Assembly: GCA_039804165.1 (NCBI GenBank)
Contig: JBDRZZ010000035.1
Span: 1-10,496, forward strand
Source: a candidate division WOR-3 bacterium
Lineage (GTDB): Bacteria > Hydrothermota > UBA3072
DNA: 10,496 nucleotides
Direction of reading: 5' to 3'
The notes beneath the pieces were generated by a model that saw only the letters and a list, made by a program, of their open reading frames with translations, was not told the DNA's origin and ran no database searches. The position numbers were made by a program, and so were the translations under genes. Positions 2,410 through 10,496 of the stretch are shown here, piece by piece. Numbering within the stretch: position 1 is the first letter of the stretch; each line of letters opens with the position of its first letter.

Positions 2410-2461
2410 CAGAGTTGTCAAAGAACAAAAGGATGTTTCTTATATAAAACCCAATTTTCAC
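2410..2461 (-). repeat. Direct repeat copy within the cas5 3' end
   Basis: These bases encode the last residues of Cas5, its stop and eight bases beyond it. They recur about 1.2 kb to the left at 1204-1254 in the same orientation. The match is best over the final coding bases, the stop and the few bases just downstream (22 identical in a row), and I see no similarity beyond that on the downstream side. Together the two copies bracket the MNT/HEPN cassette. Confidence 0.75.
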
Positions 2462-3113
2462 CCCTGCGTTCTTCTATTAAAGGAAGGACAAAGGTTTTTT
2501 GAATATAAGGATTTCCTCTTTTGCCTTTGGCATATGGATTAACTTGAGAAAATTGTGCATCGTTTTTCAATTCATTTAGAGTAAACACTGGACGCTTTGC
2601 AAGATTTGCAACCTCTGGTTTCAGAGTTATCGTCTCTTTCCAGGTGAATTTGAATAATGGCTCTTTATCTTCAATCTGTGCTATTACAAAGGCGATTGAA
2701 TCAGTTGTTCCTAACCGCCTTAAGAGTCTAAAGAGTTTAGTGATTTCATCTTCCTTTTCTGAAATCTCAAGATAGACTTTCAGTGGTCCCAGAAAATGGC
2801 AATACTCTCTTAATCCAAAGGATTCTTCAAAACTTTTTCCTTTAGATTTTGAAGGTTTTAATCTCTTGATAAAAAATTTTAAAACTGCTAATTTCTCAGG
2901 TGGCTCTATTTCTAATGGTGCTGATTTAACTATCTCAAAGACCTCTTCACCATAAGACACTTTTCCTGTTGACTTTATGGCGGCATCTACCAATGCAAGT
3001 CTCAAAGCCGCAGGGCTTGGAATAGGAGAAGTTAAAGCATAACTCGGAGATAATTTTGGCATTCTATAAGAATAGAGACTTCCAAAATTGAGTTCTGCAA
3101 AAATCCATGCCAC
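2418..3113 (-). CDS. cas5: Cas5, type I-A-like Cascade subunit
   Basis: In type I effectors Cas5 caps the 5' handle of the crRNA and contacts Cas8 and the Cas7 backbone. This 231-residue protein has the Cas5 pattern PSPAALRLALVDAAI at 32-46, LRRLGTTDS at 131-139 in the middle, and a C-terminal strand ending in NWVLYKK (220-226). Length is typical for Cas5 of I-A or I-B type. The start is GTG at 3111-3113, placed by an AAGGAG five bases upstream that overlaps the stop of cas7; the nearby ATG at 3113-3115 is out of frame. It is the last gene of the cas operon, after cas8, cas11 and cas7. I see no strong terminator after it. A copy of its 3' end lies beyond the MNT/HEPN pair. Confidence 0.85.
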   Translation of the reverse strand: MAWIFAELNFGSLYSYRMPKLSPSYALTSPIPSPAALRLALVDAAIKSTGKVSYGEEVFEIVKSAPLEIEPPEKLAVLKFFIKRLKPSKSKGKSFEESFGLREYCHFLGPLKVYLEISEKEDEITKLFRLLRRLGTTDSIAFVIAQIEDKEPLFKFTWKETITLKPEVANLAKRPVFTLNELKNDAQFSQVNPYAKGKRGNPYIQKTFVLPLIEERRGENWVLYKKHPFVL

Positions 3114-3118
3114 ATTAG

Positions 3119-3124
3119 CTCCTT
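3119..3124 (-). promoter_or_regulatory. Ribosome binding site fixing the GTG start of cas5
   Basis: AAGGAG on the minus strand stands five bases before the GTG at 3113-3111 and overlaps the cas7 stop codon (3125-3123). This supports the GTG start and coupled translation of cas7 and cas5. Confidence 0.75.
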
Positions 3125-4058
3125 ATTTGGGCATAGTCAATTCATAAATAACTTTTGTTGTCAATCCGTCTAATATGGTACAAAGTTCTGTCAAATTGCT
3201 GAATTTCTCATTGGATAGCCCTTTTTGTCCTTTTACAAGATTCTCTGTCTGAGTAATATAGTCATCTTTTATAGGACTAATTATTGGAGCTGGAAAATTC
3301 GTTTCAGAGATAACCATTATTCCCTCTACTGCCTCTATGTGGGGGAGACGTGTAGAAGTCATTGCTCCATCCGTTCTTATAAATGTCGCTTTAAAAGCAT
3401 TAAGAGCTAACTGATATCTGCCCTGTCTTCTTTCACCATCTATTACATAATTGTAATCAATTTCATTTAGACCTATTCTCCATGGCTGGAAGATAGAAAC
3501 AATTGCATACACTCCTGAACGGGTTGGTCTGTGGTAAATCATTTGAGCAGTTACTTGCCTCTCCACAGTTTCTTCCTGTCCTGCCTCAAATTCTTCACGA
3601 GAGCGTCCTTCCATTGAATGCCTTGCATGAATATGAATATCTCTATGTGTTCTATCAGGAAGACCTAATGCCCATCCAAATTCAACTGTTGAAGGTCTTG
3701 CAATTGTTGGTCTTTGAACCAAAAAACCGTGAAGGTCACAAAGGGCACATAACTTTATAGCCTCACTCATAGCCTTTGCCTCATCCATTCTTTTACCGCT
3801 TACCAGAGGATTCATATCTGCTTTTTGTGGATGAAATTTTTGACATGCCTCGCAAAATTGACTTTTATCTTCCTGCAATAACCAAACATTATAAGCATGA
3901 ATATGTTTCAGCATTTCACCAGAAATTCCATCTGTCTTTTCACCACTTGCCAGAACAACTGTCCGAGGTTCTGTGACATTGCCAACCGTTCCTTCATTAT
4001 TAAGCGAATGGAGATTCCATGTTGCTCTACCCAATATTGCTATTTCAAAGATTGCCAT
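3123..4058 (-). CDS. cas7: Cas7 of the DevR/Csa2 family, type I-A-like Cascade backbone
   Basis: Cas7 forms the helical backbone that coats the crRNA spacer in type I effectors. This 311-residue protein shows the hallmarks of the DevR/Csa2 group: N-terminal RATWNLHSLNNEGTVGN at 11-27, then ISGEMLKHIH at 45-54, where the equivalent segment in homologues precedes the large insertion domain. The insertion holds two Cys pairs, C69/C72 and C104/C107, which could bind zinc. A later GRYQLALNAFKAT at 213-225 and the LPHIEAVEG strand complete the fold. It follows the Csa5-like gene after 14 bases and has a strong Shine-Dalgarno sequence. It is clearly different from the second Cas7-type protein at 7375-8115, so the operon codes for two backbone families. 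Confidence 0.92.
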   Translation of the reverse strand: MAIFEIAILGRATWNLHSLNNEGTVGNVTEPRTVVLASGEKTDGISGEMLKHIHAYNVWLLQEDKSQFCEACQKFHPQKADMNPLVSGKRMDEAKAMSEAIKLCALCDLHGFLVQRPTIARPSTVEFGWALGLPDRTHRDIHIHARHSMEGRSREEFEAGQEETVERQVTAQMIYHRPTRSGVYAIVSIFQPWRIGLNEIDYNYVIDGERRQGRYQLALNAFKATFIRTDGAMTSTRLPHIEAVEGIMVISETNFPAPIISPIKDDYITQTENLVKGQKGLSNEKFSNLTELCTILDGLTTKVIYELTMPK

Positions 4059-4072: not shown

Positions 4073-4396
4073 TTATTCTTCTTTCATACCTCTAACAAGG
4101 GCATGGCTTATTAGGGCTGCCCTTACAAGTCTTACTCCGTAATCACTTACCAACTTCATAAGTTTTTCCAAATTCTCTTCTGTTGGTCTTTTTAAATGCA
4201 TTCGTCGAGCGTGTGTCTCATATCTACGCAAAAATTTACGTAATGCATCTGCAAAATCTTCTTCTTTTTCAGCATTTTCTAATTCAATAAGGGAAGCATA
4301 GTCCTGAATCTCTTCCATGCGTAAAGCCTTCCGTAATGTGCTGCCAAAGTCTTTTATAGCTTCATCAGAGTAAAGCATCGCTAAACTATCTGACAT
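4073..4396 (-). CDS. Csa5-like small subunit (Cas11) of a type I-A-like Cascade
   Basis: The 107-residue product is predicted from its sequence to be all helical, charged, with no Cys. The region YGVRLVRAALISHALVRG at 86-103 resembles the C-terminal helix of Csa5, the type I-A small subunit that lines the inner face of the Cascade complex. Its place between a Cas8-like gene and cas7 is the usual one for this subunit and is the main support. The ATG lies inside the end of the Cas8-like gene (11-base overlap), with a near-perfect ribosome binding site. The sequence is too short and divergent to be certain by eye. Confidence 0.65.
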   Translation of the reverse strand: MSDSLAMLYSDEAIKDFGSTLRKALRMEEIQDYASLIELENAEKEEDFADALRKFLRRYETHARRMHLKRPTEENLEKLMKLVSDYGVRLVRAALISHALVRGMKEE

Positions 4397-5462
4397 AGGC
4401 TACCACCTCCTTTAAGGTTTCATAGTCATATAAATTTGCAGACTTAATTTCTTTTGGTCTTGATATATATTTCAGAAAAATTTTTACATGTTTTTCATAA
4501 GTTTCTAAAGATGGATTCATTATGAATTCTGTTATTGCCTCAGCTAAATCCTCACATCCCTGAACGCTCCCTTTTCTAAATAGATAATTCCATACCTCAA
4601 AAACCTTTGAGATATTTGGTCTTCCAGAAAGGGCAAGCTCCATCAAAGGATAAATGCTTAAATTGCCACCTGTAGCCGGCTTGAACTGCTGCCCGCTTTG
4701 AACAATTGAGAAATAAAAGACTCCTGAAAATCTATCGCTGAATTGAGATTTTGATGCTGCCATCGCACGCATCTTCTCTGCAAGGACAACAGAAAAATGG
4801 GCAGCAGCATTCTGGATGCTAAAATATTTAAGACCAATAGTGTATATTGAGTTTCTTATTTCTCTGAAGTTATTAAGTTCAATTCTTTGAGGTACAGGAA
4901 AAATAACAAAATAGTCCCATTTATTCCCCTGAGACTTTTGAATTTTGTATCTTCCAGAAATAGCTCCACCAAGACAGGCAAGCGCCCAGTTATGGCTATC
5001 AACCTTAGTTTGGCCTTCTGAGTAATCTCCTCTTGTTCTTCCTCTGAGACCCTTAAAGGCTGATGGGTCAAGAGGACCAGAAAGCGTTTCACCTCTGTCA
5101 GAAGATATCACAGGTAAATTTGTAGGGTCTTGGAAATCATTGATAATCTTCTCCGCATCTTTGCTTAATATATCTTTTACCTTTTTGACTTTTTTTGACC
5201 AGTTCTGTTTATCAGTAAGAAATATCCGACTCCATGTCCTGTCATCAGGAGATTCTTCAAAAAGAGAATACCAGCCAGTGTTCTCGAGAAGCCTTTGGGC
5301 AGATACATCTGTTGCTTCATGCTCTATCAAATAAAAACTTCCTGCATCATTGATAACAGGTATCTCCCCTTCAGAGCTTGCATAATCCAGTAGCATTGCC
5401 AACCCGTAAGCCCTGCAAAGGTCAAAGATTTCAAGGCCGGTTTTGGGGATGAAGTGTAGCAT
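4386..5462 (-). CDS. Small Cas8-like large subunit, type I-A-like
   Basis: I assign this 358-residue protein as the Cas8-type large subunit mainly from position: it stands directly before the small subunit, Cas7 and Cas5. Features seen are an N-terminal helix GLEIFDLCRAYGLAMLLDYA at 9-28, a Gly/Arg-rich GLRGRTRGDYSEG at 138-150, then NWALACLGG at 158-166 and a helical C-terminal third. These recall the Cas8a1/Csx13-type proteins of compact I-A-like systems. Length is at the low end for Cas8, and I see no zinc-binding Cys pairs. Cas8 normally recognises the PAM and recruits Cas3; that role is inferred. The ATG is two bases after the stop of the HEPN gene and lacks a Shine-Dalgarno sequence, so translation probably depends on coupling. 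Confidence 0.65.
   Translation of the reverse strand: MLHFIPKTGLEIFDLCRAYGLAMLLDYASSEGEIPVINDAGSFYLIEHEATDVSAQRLLENTGWYSLFEESPDDRTWSRIFLTDKQNWSKKVKKVKDILSKDAEKIINDFQDPTNLPVISSDRGETLSGPLDPSAFKGLRGRTRGDYSEGQTKVDSHNWALACLGGAISGRYKIQKSQGNKWDYFVIFPVPQRIELNNFREIRNSIYTIGLKYFSIQNAAAHFSVVLAEKMRAMAASKSQFSDRFSGVFYFSIVQSGQQFKPATGGNLSIYPLMELALSGRPNISKVFEVWNYLFRKGSVQGCEDLAEAITEFIMNPSLETYEKHVKIFLKYISRPKEIKSANLYDYETLKEVVAYVR
4403..4412 (-). promoter_or_regulatory. Near-perfect ribosome binding site of the small-subunit gene
   Basis: AAGGAGGTGG lies within the last codons of the Cas8-like gene, six bases before the ATG at 4396-4394. It suggests high expression of the small subunit compared with Cas8, as expected from Cascade stoichiometry. 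Confidence 0.75.
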
Positions 5463-5464
5463 GT

Positions 5465-6352
5465 TTATGGATTATTTTTGTTTTTCAATAGTTCCTGTAA
5501 ATATCTTGCTGCTTGAAGGGTAGCGATAATAGCAGATCTTGCACAATCACAATCCTCGACCATTGTTTTTCTGCAGGCATCTTGCCATTGCGGAATTCTT
5601 GAATCAATTTCAGATCGATGAGCGTAAGCATTTCTTATCCATAAAACTATATACAAATTGGAAAGAATATACCATTCTATTCTACTTTTAGGACTGAGAT
5701 TTATAGGATTTTGAGTGTTTTCCAAAATAGTCTTTATTTCTCCAAGTTTTGGTCCCCAGTCTGAAGAACTACAATTCCTTCCAGATAATTCATGAAGATA
5801 TTGAGCAAATTTATCAGTCAATCGTCTGGATGCATTGCCACAATAAGAAATGGTCTCAGGAAACTCTTTATTTTTAAATCTTTCTATTGACTCTTTTGTG
5901 TCATTAATTATCTCATCAGTTAAATAGGATGAATCTAAAGATTGAATACCTTCAGTAAAATCAAAATGGGAAGGCGGTAATACTGAATCTATCCTCCTGA
6001 ATCTTTCTACCATCTCTTTATAAATTTCATTTGAAATGATAGTTTCATGGTAAACATTTAGTCGAGCAGAGAATTCTAAAATGCGTTTATAAATTGGCGA
6101 TTTTCTGTCTATAGTCTCTTCCAAATCTTCAGAAAATTCAGCTTCCATAGATTCATTTATTGAATTGATTTCTCGCCATATTTTGAAAATAACTAAGCCT
6201 CTTTCTATTAGAGGAGGCTCTGCATCATTACCCAATGTAACTCCAAGTTCCTTTGCCACGTCATTCATATATTCAAAAACTCTTTCTGCTTTAAGTGGTA
6301 AAGCGTCTATAAGTTCTTTAATTTTTACTATAGCTGATGAGAGGTCTTCCAT
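5465..6352 (-). CDS. Helical protein with C-terminal HEPN domain, embedded in the cas operon
   Basis: The 295-residue protein looks fully helical. Residues ~150-290 fit a HEPN domain: a helix NASRRLTDKFAQYLHEL at 173-189, then IEWYILSNLYIVLWIRNAYAH at 225-245 containing R240-x4-H245, the catalytic R-x4-6-H motif of HEPN RNases. Residues 1-140 match nothing I recognise and hold no CARF-type fold that I can see. HEPN RNases act in Csm6/Csx1, Cas13, RNase toxins and abortive infection proteins. The gene has 6 bases before it and 2 after it, between the RAMP gene and the Cas8-like gene, so it is an integral part of the operon. It could be an RNase effector triggered by target recognition, or a structural subunit of the complex; the motif favours RNase activity. 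Confidence 0.75.
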   Translation of the reverse strand: MEDLSSAIVKIKELIDALPLKAERVFEYMNDVAKELGVTLGNDAEPPLIERGLVIFKIWREINSINESMEAEFSEDLEETIDRKSPIYKRILEFSARLNVYHETIISNEIYKEMVERFRRIDSVLPPSHFDFTEGIQSLDSSYLTDEIINDTKESIERFKNKEFPETISYCGNASRRLTDKFAQYLHELSGRNCSSSDWGPKLGEIKTILENTQNPINLSPKSRIEWYILSNLYIVLWIRNAYAHRSEIDSRIPQWQDACRKTMVEDCDCARSAIIATLQAARYLQELLKNKNNP

Positions 6353-6358
6353 GTATTA

Positions 6359-7363
6359 TCAACCTTCAATTGAAAACCTTCCAAACCCTATATCTGCCCA
6401 TTCCCCTACTCCAAACAAACTACAAAGGGCTAACTGAGTTGGTAACGATTGATTACTATCTCCAAAATAACAGTCAAAATAACTACCTGCTTTTGCAACT
6501 AAACGATTTTTCTTTGTTGATTCTTCAAGTGAGTATCTACTGACATAATCAGGAATAATGTATGTTCTAATAGAATCAATGACTGTAGGTTCAACATTTA
6601 AATTTAAATTGAAGAATTCAGACAGTTCTTTACTTCTGTTTAAAAGCATTTTTGAAAATAATGCGGCAAATTGATTTTGATCCAGATCTATTGGTAAGCC
6701 ACTATTATTATGAAGCAGAAAGGGGGTTATGAAAGTAAGACGTTGTTTCTTTTCATATTGTCTAAATTCAGTGATCTTTTCATTTAATACATCTTTTACT
6801 TTTTTTATTGACATGTTCTTGATGGAAAATCTACCCATTGCAACATTCTTATATTTGCCAATTCCAAAATATAGTCCAATGACTTTAAATGCTGACTTTA
6901 CATCATCAATTATTTGTTCATCATTACATAAAACAATTTCGACAGAGAAATTACAGCCGTCTCTTATCTGCTCTATATTTACAATACCCCCCCCTGAAGA
7001 AGCTCTTGACTCTCTACTGATTGCTATTCTTGTTATTGCCCTGAATTGTGGTCTTTCAAATTGACCAAAAGATAATAATATTCCCCATTTCTCATTCCAT
7101 AAAAATTTTTTAACTATGCATTGAATTTCACATTTTGAATGAAACTCTATAATATCTGACTCTTTTTTCAAAGCCGAAAGAGTTCTTATATTATTGGCAG
7201 TACAATTTTTTATAATCAGATAATTTAATAATTCTCCCCTAATAGAACTACCTAATATATAAGGAGAACATTTTAAGAGATTCTTATATTTTTTTTCAGT
7301 TGAATGAAAAGGTGTGTCTAAGCAACAATCAAAATGGAGAATAATACCTTCTCTCTCGCTCAT
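6359..7363 (-). CDS. Double RAMP-fold Cas protein, Csx10/Cas6-like
   Basis: The 334-residue protein seems to contain two RRM-like RAMP domains. The first has GSSIRGEL at 38-45, the usual GSxxRG turn of RAMP proteins, then FRAITRIAISRESRASSGGG at 107-126, which matches the conserved strand-loop of Csx10 and Cas7 proteins, and a Gly-rich loop FGIGKYKNVAMGRF at 166-179. The second ends in FGVGEWADIGFGRF at 317-330, as in Cas6 C-termini. In type III-D systems Csx10 plays the Cas5 part. With no other Cas6 in view, crRNA processing is also possible. It follows the Csx7-type gene by 11 bases. The coding sequence runs through a G8 tract at 6988-6995, in frame here. Confidence 0.7.
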   Translation of the reverse strand: MSEREGIILHFDCCLDTPFHSTEKKYKNLLKCSPYILGSSIRGELLNYLIIKNCTANNIRTLSALKKESDIIEFHSKCEIQCIVKKFLWNEKWGILLSFGQFERPQFRAITRIAISRESRASSGGGIVNIEQIRDGCNFSVEIVLCNDEQIIDDVKSAFKVIGLYFGIGKYKNVAMGRFSIKNMSIKKVKDVLNEKITEFRQYEKKQRLTFITPFLLHNNSGLPIDLDQNQFAALFSKMLLNRSKELSEFFNLNLNVEPTVIDSIRTYIIPDYVSRYSLEESTKKNRLVAKAGSYFDCYFGDSNQSLPTQLALCSLFGVGEWADIGFGRFSIEG

Positions 7364-7374
7364 TGCCTTATGCC

Positions 7375-8115
7375 TTATCCTCGATATGATGTGAATGCGG
7401 AAAGGAACTCTTCGGATTTATTGGTAACATCGGTATCTTCCCATTTGCTATCCTTTAGTTCTTTCTTTTTTATAGAAATAATTGTCGTCTCAATTTCACC
7501 GTAGCCAGCACTTTTCTTAGCGCCAAGTCCTAACATCTCTAATGATTTGATAGATAAAAGGACTGCTCCTATCTGCCATGGTTCCGGGTTTATGATTCTA
7601 ATAGTTCCTGTAAATTTAGCACCTGCATCCACTGTTTGAACTTGCATAAGCTTTCCGCCCGCTGCTGCCTTGTTGTCTCTTGTAATAGCTACATGGGTTC
7701 TATCAGTAAGAGTTGGCTCCCCAGTTGGCTTAGCATCCATGAACATAGCCCTTGCGGCAAGATCCGCAGCACCAAAAATTTGACAAACAGAACATGGGTT
7801 TTTACTTCTCGGTTCACAGGGAGCAATCCTACCAATACTTCTAGCATATTCTTCAGGATTTCTTGAAAAGTCTTTTGGTATAGCACTTAATGGAACACAG
7901 ACCCTTTCTCCTCTTTCAGTAAGAATTGATTCTAAAGTACTCCTAATCGCTCCTTTTAAAGAAGAACCTGGTATGACGGGTTTTCCTCCTACCATAGTTA
8001 CGACCTGGTCAATAGCTTTAAAAGCTGGCTCTCGACCAGCTAATATTGACAATGAACTTTTCGTAGTATATTCAACTTCGATTTCGTAAATTTCTTTTAA
8101 TTTTTCAAAAGCCAT
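7375..8115 (-). CDS. csx7: Csm3/Csx7-family Cas7 (type III-like RAMP backbone)
   Basis: This 246-residue protein has the full set of type III Cas7 marks. GKPVIPGSSLKGAIRS at 44-59 is the classic RAMP turn. D36 in FKAIDQVV lies where Csm3/Cmr4 proteins carry the Asp that cuts target RNA at 6-base intervals. C100, C108 and C111 (CSVCQIFGA), perhaps with C73, suggest a zinc site. TDRTHVAITRDNKAAAGGKL at 137-156 and the Gly-rich GLGAKKSAGYGEI at 196-208 complete the family pattern. It best resembles the Csx7 (SSO1426) group. A strong ribosome binding site overlaps the stop of the Cas10-like gene. It probably forms the crRNA-coating backbone of the type III-like module; RNA cleavage is inferred from D36. 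Confidence 0.88.
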   Translation of the reverse strand: MAFEKLKEIYEIEVEYTTKSSLSILAGREPAFKAIDQVVTMVGGKPVIPGSSLKGAIRSTLESILTERGERVCVPLSAIPKDFSRNPEEYARSIGRIAPCEPRSKNPCSVCQIFGAADLAARAMFMDAKPTGEPTLTDRTHVAITRDNKAAAGGKLMQVQTVDAGAKFTGTIRIINPEPWQIGAVLLSIKSLEMLGLGAKKSAGYGEIETTIISIKKKELKDSKWEDTDVTNKSEEFLSAFTSYRG

Positions 8116-8120
8116 TTTAT

Positions 8121-8126
8121 CCTCCT
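8121..8126 (-). promoter_or_regulatory. Strong ribosome binding site of the Csx7-type gene
   Basis: AGGAGG stands five bases before the ATG (8115-8113) and overlaps the TAG stop of the Cas10-like gene. It links translation of the two genes and suggests that the backbone protein is made in excess. Confidence 0.75.
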
Positions 8127-10065
8127 ATCTTTTAGAAAGATTTGCAATATATTTAAGAAAAACCGCCCTTTTTTCACGATCTGAATATTCACTATTTGTT
8201 GGTTCTAATTGTTGTAATGAGTTCTTGAGTTCATTTTCAATGCCTCTGAGATGATCTTTCCTTACATCAATTTCCAATAAAAGTTCATCTAATGTCGTCT
8301 CCATAGCAACTTGACTTACATTATGTATCTGTGTTGGCCAAACCTTGCGATTTCTTGCCAAATCAGCCAATCTTCTAATATCCTTTACTTCTTTTGCAGT
8401 AAACACTATAACCACCTCCTTAGAAACATCAAAAAAAATATCTTTCTCATAATGCTTCAGAGCACCTTCTATCAAAGACCAGAAAGGAGTTTTTGCATCA
8501 CATATTATTACTTTTATACCCATTTCTAATTGCATCTTTAATCTTTCAGAGTTCAGAATTCCAATAAACCCCCAAACCTTATCTTCTCTAAATAGGAAAA
8601 CTTTCAAATTAGGGAAAATAAACAATGTGTTAGCTGAAATCTCGTCCTTCTTAACCTTCATTTTGTTAATCTCATCCTTCAAGGTTTCATCAAATCTCTG
8701 CAAATCCAGAAGCATCTGGAGATATTCATACATTCCAGTTTGAGTTGCATTTATCTTTTGTTGGAGACCAATCCTTTCATAAAATCGAGGTAATAAAATA
8801 TTGTCTGCTACATCTTTTGCATGTTGCAATAAATTATCAGGAAATGTTATAAAAACAAAGGCAATTCTTTCTTCACCTTCTTCGGACTGCGAAACTTTAT
8901 CAAAGTCAATACCAGATGTAATGTTTCTTAATGTTAAACAATCTTCACATATTAAATTATTTTTTTCATCGGGTCTTAAAAAACTTTCATCATATGGTAT
9001 CTGACACATTTCACACCGTACTAAAGAATTGTAATTAAATGAAAACAAATTCTTAGAAAATAAAGTTTCCTTAAGTCGAGATGGTGTATTTATTAAATTG
9101 ATTTTAGTGGGTACATTAGGTCCCCATTCGATTTCTAATTCAAAGTCGTAATGTTCGACATCAATATATCTTATCCCTTTTATATTTGAAAAAGATGATA
9201 TCAATTCCTTTTTAAATATTTCGTAATTATCAAATATGTAAACCATGGAATCTTCAGAATAAAATACAAAAGGGTTGTAAATAGGGTCAATGTCTTGCAG
9301 GTCATTTGCAAACTTTGAATAGATTTGCCTAAAAATAGTTCTGTTTAAAATTTGGCTAAGTTTTTGGCAGATAATCACATCACGTAATCTATAAAAAATG
9401 TCTATAAAATTTGGTTGCACTCTAATTATGGAAAATTTAAATTCTTTAAATTCTGAAAAATGGCTAAGTTCTTTAAGTTTGCTAATTATCAAATAATAAA
9501 TAATTGCTGTAAATTGGTGGTGAACCGCCAATGAAAGATGAGGGATATAGGATGTGTGTGGGAAATTTATCATTTCTTTCTGCATTTCAAGAAGGTCTTT
9601 AACATTTATATTTTTTGTAAGATAGTTGTAAATCTTTCTGAATACTGTAATCATATGATCAGTATCCCAGTCATAAGGGAATCCCCAAAAAGAGTAAAAC
9701 CTCTGTGGGTCCTGACTCCTTCTTTGGGTTAATTCTTGATCATTTTCAAGGTCAAAAGGGTAGCCTTGTATTGTTTTACTAATTCTATCAGCTAAATACA
9801 TTGCGACTCCTTCTAATCCTGCCTCAACCTTTCTTTTGTGTAAAGTTAAAACATCTGAAGGGAGCTTTACTGGTGGCAATGCGAATTTTTTACCGAATAA
9901 CTCTAAATAGTCTTGCAAATTCTCATGTGAAGTACTTTTACCTTCCTTACTTAAGTCACGCATTATTTCAGTTCTGAATTCAAGCAGTTTTCCAATGTCA
10001 TGAATCATTGAAGAAATGAAACCATTCCATATTTTTGCAGTATCTTTATTTGACATGTTTCTCAT
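8125..10065 (-). CDS. cas10: Cas10-like large subunit: intact HD domain, inactive palm
   Basis: The 646-residue protein follows the Cas10 domain order. The N-terminal HD domain has H22-D23 in HDIGK, H47, H76 and A92-D93. PHLSLAVHHQFTA at 175-187 matches the conserved segment after HD in Cas10 and Cas10d. RVQPNFIDIFYRLRD at 215-229 aligns with the first palm signature, normally GDxxGIQxF, and is degenerate. A zinc ribbon C351/C354-C373/C376 lies between the two palms. The second palm starts at IAFVFITFPDNL (401-412), and KVIICDAKTPFW at 518-529 stands where GGDD would be. Without GGDD no cyclic oligoadenylate should be made, while the HD nuclease looks intact. This pattern recalls III-F-type Cas10 or type I-D Cas10d, but neighbours do not match I-D. 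The start overlaps the end of the cas3'' frame by 20 bases; M4 is an alternative start. Confidence 0.8.
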   Translation of the reverse strand: MRNMSNKDTAKIWNGFISSMIHDIGKLLEFRTEIMRDLSKEGKSTSHENLQDYLELFGKKFALPPVKLPSDVLTLHKRKVEAGLEGVAMYLADRISKTIQGYPFDLENDQELTQRRSQDPQRFYSFWGFPYDWDTDHMITVFRKIYNYLTKNINVKDLLEMQKEMINFPHTSYIPHLSLAVHHQFTAIIYYLIISKLKELSHFSEFKEFKFSIIRVQPNFIDIFYRLRDVIICQKLSQILNRTIFRQIYSKFANDLQDIDPIYNPFVFYSEDSMVYIFDNYEIFKKELISSFSNIKGIRYIDVEHYDFELEIEWGPNVPTKINLINTPSRLKETLFSKNLFSFNYNSLVRCEMCQIPYDESFLRPDEKNNLICEDCLTLRNITSGIDFDKVSQSEEGEERIAFVFITFPDNLLQHAKDVADNILLPRFYERIGLQQKINATQTGMYEYLQMLLDLQRFDETLKDEINKMKVKKDEISANTLFIFPNLKVFLFREDKVWGFIGILNSERLKMQLEMGIKVIICDAKTPFWSLIEGALKHYEKDIFFDVSKEVVIVFTAKEVKDIRRLADLARNRKVWPTQIHNVSQVAMETTLDELLLEIDVRKDHLRGIENELKNSLQQLEPTNSEYSDREKRAVFLKYIANLSKR

Positions 10066-10496
10066 CTGATGTTTTCAGTAAATTCTCTTCCACTGCTCTT
10101 CTATCTGCCAATCTTAATGCCCTCGACAGAATGACATAGAGATTGTAACACTTTTCTTTTTCAAAGGCTGGGAAGTGATCAGAGAGAGTTGTTGGGGAAT
10201 CTTGAACTTCAAAGTTCTTCACATATTTCAAATCAAATTTTATCCCTAATTCAGAAAGCAATTTATCAACCTCATCAAACCATCCATCACAAAGTCTATA
10301 TTCAGGGACCTTTGTGGCTCTGACTGAATGGTGGTGGGCTATAGCAAAGAAAGCAGCATCTCCCATAATATTACCCCATTCCTTTCTGAGATAATCTCTT
10401 AAAATATAAGCAGAAATAGGTGCATGGGGTGGGAGTTTAACTTTTTTCTAATTTTTCTGAATGGGCAAGGAATTCATCTTTGGCACCGATCTTTTT
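10046..10496 (-). CDS. cas3'': Cas3'' HD nuclease, 5' end outside window, apparent frameshift
   Basis: Two overlapping frames together read as one HD domain. The first (10496-10437) gives KKIGAKDEFLAHSEKLEKS and then a TAA; it begins where LHDIGK would be expected just beyond the window. The second (10447-10046) continues with KLPPHAPISAYIL, then AIAHHHSVRA and, 62 residues after its HHH, SRALRLADRRA, which are the later HD motifs of Cas3''. Joining them needs removal of one base in an A6 run at 10442-10447. An ATG at 10366 opens a 106-residue reading frame, but it would cut the HD fold in half. Cas3'' cuts DNA for type I-A interference together with a separate helicase Cas3', which is not in view. 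It may be a sequencing error, a true pseudogene or slippage. Confidence 0.75.
10437..10450 (-). other. Frameshift point in cas3'' at an A6 tract
   Basis: On the minus strand the sequence GAAAAAAGTTAA closes the upstream frame (AGT TAA). The HD continuation is in the frame that reads GTT AAA CTC, with its own TAG just before. The two frames overlap only over this run, so a change of one base in the A6 tract is the simplest way to join them. Confidence 0.65.

Follow-up and report, generated by a model that had tools for sequence, protein, structure and literature searches.

A very diverged Cas10 without a cyclase motif in a III-H-like module within a bacterial type I-A operon

The window analysed here, 10,496 nt long, is the whole of contig C35 of a bacterial genome (1.96 Mb, 95% complete, with an SSU rRNA matching the bacterial model RF00177), and the product of its frame at 8125..10065 (minus strand) is a very diverged Cas10. 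This protein is probably, at a chance that we put near 0.6, the large subunit of a type III complex of the III-H kind, minimal in composition (Cas10, one Cas7 and one Cas5) and without signalling, the genes of which were inserted together with that of a 295-aa protein (p295) into a type I-A operon.

The frame, which the initial annotation had called Cas10-like, is intact and encodes 646 aa. The reading frame, the orthologues, Foldseek and hhalign together define an HD domain, two palm domains without GGDD, a zinc ribbon and a Cas11-like C-terminal helical domain, i.e., the order HD, palm, zinc ribbon, palm and helical bundle of the Cas10 superfamily fold. Pfam, NCBIfam and PADLOC gave no Cas10 match for this protein, the PADLOC Cas10 models remaining without a match at E<=1, and phmmer against the PDB returned none. 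The AlphaFold2 model, built with three sequences, was weak (pLDDT 52 overall, about 35-45 in the HD part, too low there for metal ligands to be read from it), and its superposition showed a Cas10 fold: the top Foldseek rows were all Csm1, Cmr2 or III-D Cas10 (best E 8e-8), and VIA-align to Cas10 structures gave Z up to 10.7. The five-member family aligned by hhalign to archaeal III-D-like Cas10s over residues 16-574 with a probability of 90.5 (E 1.4e-6). The zinc ribbon (CxxC...CxxC, residues 351-376, 8938..9015, minus) could be placed as expected, with C351, C354, C373 and C376 invariant in the five orthologues. The C-terminal domain (residues 558-646, 8128..8394, minus; pLDDT about 80-90 there) came closest to the III-D Cas11 8bmw_B, with Z 10.1 and an rmsd of 1.9 over 81 residues, where helical bundles score easily and Z <13 is weak; a sequence search with this domain found no Cas11 match, and ordinary Cas10 ends in much the same way.

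Of the four full-length orthologues found, three belong to archaea of the Methanosarcinia and the fourth to a Chloroflexi MAG. The scan with the Cas7 alignment yielded L009 (Chloroflexi MAG; Cas10 identity 27%, E 3e-68) and L010 (Methanosarcinaceae MAG; 31%, E 1e-89), and L095 and L096 (E <1e-230) emerged when the class to which L010 belongs was searched with a profile. Among 199 relatives of the window genome no Cas10 orthologue was detected, and when about 390 genomes of the L010 phylum were sampled, the family alignment recovered L010 as the only strong full-length member, L095 and L096 having come from the class search. No match came from the genome scan with a single protein, from plasmids searched with Cas10, or from viral contigs, for which both Cas7 and the Cas10 alignment served as queries. 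Each orthologous Cas10 adjoins one Csm3/Csx7-like Cas7, plus a Csx10-like Cas5 where the contig reaches; a single Cas7 and a single Cas5 accompany Cas10 in the window, L009, L095 and L096, and the L010 contig stops inside cas7. Because orthologous sets are found in these four loci, the Cas10-Cas7-Cas5 module is a recurrent unit and not a local accident. It is standalone in L095 (cas6-cas10-cas7-cas5-CRISPR array, 13 repeats) and in L009 (cas10-cas7-cas5-array, 13 repeats), lies downstream of a complete type I-B set, cas6 and cas1 in L096, and lies downstream of cas4 and cas1 in L010. The L009 Cas10 has an unusual architecture, being fused in frame behind SLFN_AlbA_2 (Pfam E 3e-18) and HATPase_c_4 (3e-23) at L009:5611-8808. 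The L095 array (L095:528-1346) holds four consecutive copies of one spacer. A single spacer search in viral contigs gave no match.

The cyclase motif has indeed been lost, as neither GGDD nor GGDE occurs anywhere in the window Cas10. The palm-2 beta hairpin at the GGDD position, located from the model secondary structure and hhalign at approximately residues 479-493 (8587..8631, minus), reads NTLFIFPNLKVFLFR and carries no acidic pair, and the motif is absent from the equivalent hairpin in all five orthologues. CDAKTPFW (522-529) had been taken for the segment replacing GGDD, but the profile alignments place it after beta-4 and not at that hairpin. In these and in the orthologue alignment, CDAKTPFWSL (residues 522-531, 8473..8502, minus) is a post-beta4 'KxP' segment with '..AKPKHP..' and '..MPQRFP..' as its counterparts in ordinary Cas10, and TPFWSL is invariant across the five-member family. 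Ordinary Cas10 often shows 'KxP' after that strand, as in 'HYKTPL' of the III-B Cmr2 of the same genome. A 'KxP' regular expression matched after GGDD in 12 of 69 ordinary Cas10s, compared with 5.1 after shuffling (shuffled maximum 12), which is not clearly above chance, so the placement rests on two profile alignments and the strand order of the model. The first palm signature, previously described as degenerate, is not random, FYRxR being invariant within the family. Since GGDD is absent from five orthologues in two domains of life, a loss of cyclic-oligoadenylate synthesis in this Cas10 family is well supported, and the complex would make no such product, as had been anticipated. The ten main window proteins match no CARF family in the family libraries, in agreement with the earlier observation that the window holds no CARF protein.

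The HD core (residues 16-110, 9736..10020, minus) was placed by alignments, with H22-D23 at 9997-10002, M35 in the position of a conserved His at 9961-9963, H76 at 9838-9840 and D93 at 9787-9789. The initial annotation stated that the protein keeps its HD nuclease, and H22-D23, H76 and D93 are found where it had put them, but H47 aligns with no conserved His. All five family members share H22, D23 and D93, and H76 is the first His of the HH motif, the second being replaced by K77. The conserved His ('HxDL' / 'HxxxS'), present in all 13 other aligned Cas10s, is M35 or a gap in the window protein. Judged by alignment, H22, D23, H76 and D93 are present and two histidines are missing. In Cas3-type HD nucleases the missing histidines hold the second metal, and because both are absent, the second metal site of the window Cas10 is predicted to be incomplete and its HD activity appears uncertain. 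The archaeal members retain the full HD motif set, HxDL and HH included, the Chloroflexi member is without the HH motif, and the HD nuclease looks degraded in the bacterial copies of the family. Could the HD domain nevertheless have full DNase competence and act as the complex's effector, in line with the general prediction for III-H? The invariance of H22, D23 and D93, the intact motifs of the archaeal members and the published prediction of DNA cleavage as the III-H function (Makarova 2025, PMC12669027) speak for it, but the window protein has neither the His common to 13 other Cas10s nor the second His of HH, and HH is also lost in the Chloroflexi member, and we regard this as rather unlikely.

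It is very unlikely that the window Cas10 is a decaying pseudogene without function. The loss of GGDD and of HD ligands in this copy and the broken cas3 nearby would suit such decay, but the 646-aa frame is intact, its neighbours overlap it or are adjacent, and about 100 residues, TPFWSL among them, are invariant in the archaeal and bacterial members; the pseudogene reading was rejected on the intact frame and these invariant residues.

The module's Cas7 (Csx7/Csm3-like; 7375..8115, minus) was recognised by family matches and alignment, and its D36 is invariant in all five family members and in III-D relatives. In Csm3 this position is that of the target-RNA-cleaving Asp, and because it is invariant, target-RNA cleavage by Cas7 would be the best-preserved predicted activity of the module. 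The earlier proposal of the HD domain as effector is weakened, since two HD histidines are gone in the window copy and Cas7 retains this Asp. The type III Cas5 (Csx10-like RAMP; 6359..7363, minus) was identified by family matches and has an L009 orthologue with 32% identity (E 5e-49). The protein p295 (5465..6352, minus), which came with the type III module, has no match in Pfam, NCBIfam or PADLOC and no convincing homologue in the phylum, and its model was unusable (pLDDT 40). It is probably all-helical, without CARF, and its residues 240-245 (RNAYAH) resemble the HEPN RxxxxH motif, which is a lead only.

The order on the minus strand is the end of cas3, the Cas10-like gene, cas7, cas5, p295, cas8a, cas11a, cas7a and cas5a, and with neighbouring genes spaced by only -20 to +14 nt all the way from cas3 through cas5a, it looks like one transcription unit. 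The type I-A genes, all on the minus strand, are the C-terminal HD part of cas3 (10046..10435; 34% identity to the C-terminus of G099 Cas3, E 2e-10), cas8a (4386..5462; PADLOC 1.8e-40), cas11a (4073..4396; PADLOC 1.5e-38), cas7a (DevR/Csa2; 3123..4058; Pfam 7.3e-57) and cas5a (2418..3113; PADLOC 9.2e-30). In G099, from the same phylum, the operon is cas3-cas8a-cas11a-cas7a-cas5a with nothing separating cas3 from cas8a, and its I-A genes share 33-49% identity with their window counterparts, with which they are colinear apart from the extra genes. Because G099 has the same order without them, the genes of Cas10, Cas7, Cas5 and p295 look like a four-gene insertion. The host operon carries the normal I-A effector set (Cas3-Cas8a-Cas11a-Cas7a-Cas5a) and differs from type I-A in these four genes between cas3 and cas8a. 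A frame break interrupts cas3 at about 10437 (10430-10440), within the HD domain and an A-run 60 nt from the contig end, where the gene runs off the contig; the break may be an assembly error. A perfect 23-nt direct repeat at 1204-1226 and 2410-2432, with similarity extending over about 50 nt, flanks a nucleotidyltransferase (MNT)/HEPN-like pair, its second copy overlapping the 3' end of cas5a, and no third copy was found in the window genome. The pair with its repeat looks like an insertion with a duplicated end. As in the window, a nucleotidyltransferase/HEPN-like pair lies inside the archaeal I-B/III composite locus (L096:4681-5660), and such pairs are possibly recurrent guests of CRISPR loci.

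No Cas1 was found in the 95%-complete window genome and no CRISPR array in the window or in 19.5 kb around cas6, and one Cas6 is encoded on C11, beside a III-B locus whose Cmr2 bears GGDD. That locus (L147, C11:3000-22500) has Cmr2 (GGDD), Cmr1 and Cmr3-like genes, and it also holds separate Cas3'' and Cas3' genes, Cas6 and two proteins (311 and 374 aa) between them. With no Cas1 and with Cas6 beside this locus, guides would be supplied, and any cOA signal produced, by other parts of the genome, and because the III-B Cas10 has GGDD, signalling by a different system may still take place in the cell. Another reading joins the I-A Cascade to the type III module in one dual system using the same crRNAs, in which the III complex recognises RNA, Cas8a/Cas3 destroys DNA and Cas10 is mainly a sensor or scaffold. 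The single tightly packed operon, the otherwise colinear I-A genes of G099 and the archaeal L096 module, which likewise has a complete type I-B locus, cas1 and cas6 included, beside it, are consistent with it, but L095 and L009 stand alone with their own arrays, so type I linkage is not required, and in this assembly cas3 carries a frame break. We consider a dual system possible, though doubtful. A bolder version, somewhat less likely again, is that the one operon encodes two complete crRNA-guided complexes, the I-A Cascade with Cas3 and the non-signalling III-H-like complex, which would share guides so that one and the same crRNA leads Cas7 (D36) to cut transcripts and Cas3 to destroy DNA; p295, through its HEPN motif, would act as an extra RNase.

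III-H is a rare subtype, first described in 2023. Altae-Tran (2023, PMC10910872) described a type III subtype in which a single Cas7 and a single Cas5 accompany a Cas10 that has an active HD and a dead polymerase, and under the name III-H it was further characterised by a Cas11 that took the place of the Cas10 C-terminus and by a Cas7 Asp that is not conserved (Makarova 2025, PMC12669027). The window module agrees with III-H in its single Cas7, single Cas5 and Cas10 with an HD domain and an inactivated polymerase, the polymerase/cyclase residues being replaced in five of five family members, as well as in the lack of nearby cOA effector genes, the spread over archaea plus a few bacterial MAGs, and the missing adaptation module, the window genome being without Cas1. 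The Cas10 C-terminus may also resemble Cas11. The module differs in that Cas7 D36 is kept in all five members, the window Cas10 is without two HD histidines and the module sits inside a type I-A operon; in addition, III-H is described as lacking adaptation modules, whereas the relatives L010 and L096 adjoin cas1 and L010 also cas4. Because the Cas7 Asp is conserved, HD activity uncertain and the Cas11 likeness weakly scored, the label "III-H-like" was preferred to membership. By the published III-H outline, the window module is thus a III-H-like variant, not a proven member, in an unusual I-A/III composite operon. III-D (Cas10, Csx10, Csm3/Csx7) resembles it in that the module's Cas7 is nearest Csx7/Csm3, its Cas5 nearest Csx10 and the best profile match of its Cas10 an archaeal III-D-like Cas10, but the window has a single Cas7 where III-D has several, no recognisable Cas11 of its own and no GGDD. 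III-F shares the dead palm and single Cas7, and the window Cas7 matches the Cas7_IIIf model at 2.4e-15, but it has better matches than this one. Of the two comparisons drawn in the initial annotation, the one with III-F was therefore close, with III-H the better match, and the one with I-D is unsupported, as the neighbours are not Csc1/Csc2. Cas10d has an HD domain and an inactive palm, as does the window protein, but its identity as a type I-D large subunit is extremely improbable: its partners are Csx7/Csm3-like and Csx10-like, with Csc2 reached only at E 0.12, the operon already encodes a type I large subunit, Cas8a, and the top structure matches are all type III Cas10. The I-D reading was rejected for the want of Csc1/Csc2 partners beside Csx7/Csm3-like, Csx10-like and I-A genes.

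In the preferred reading, a minimal III-H-like complex, crRNAs would be made by the Cas6 encoded elsewhere in the genome and loaded into a Cas7 filament capped by Cas5 and Cas10, and binding of a complementary transcript would lead to RNA cutting by Cas7 (D36). The dead palm would yield no cyclic oligoadenylate and would have a scaffold role, and cleavage or nicking of single-stranded DNA by the HD domain may persist. Because the second metal site is incomplete in the window copy, DNA destruction may fall mainly to the co-transcribed I-A/Cas3 arm. In type III immunity, the recognition of RNA is normally linked to an alarm carried by cyclic nucleotides. This diverged Cas10 family appears to have dropped that alarm in archaea and bacteria and to have kept a Cas7 predicted to cut RNA, and erosion of the HD nuclease is visible in its bacterial copies. 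Its place inside a type I-A operon makes the module a naturally occurring case in which to ask whether effectors of types I and III can draw on a single pool of guides.
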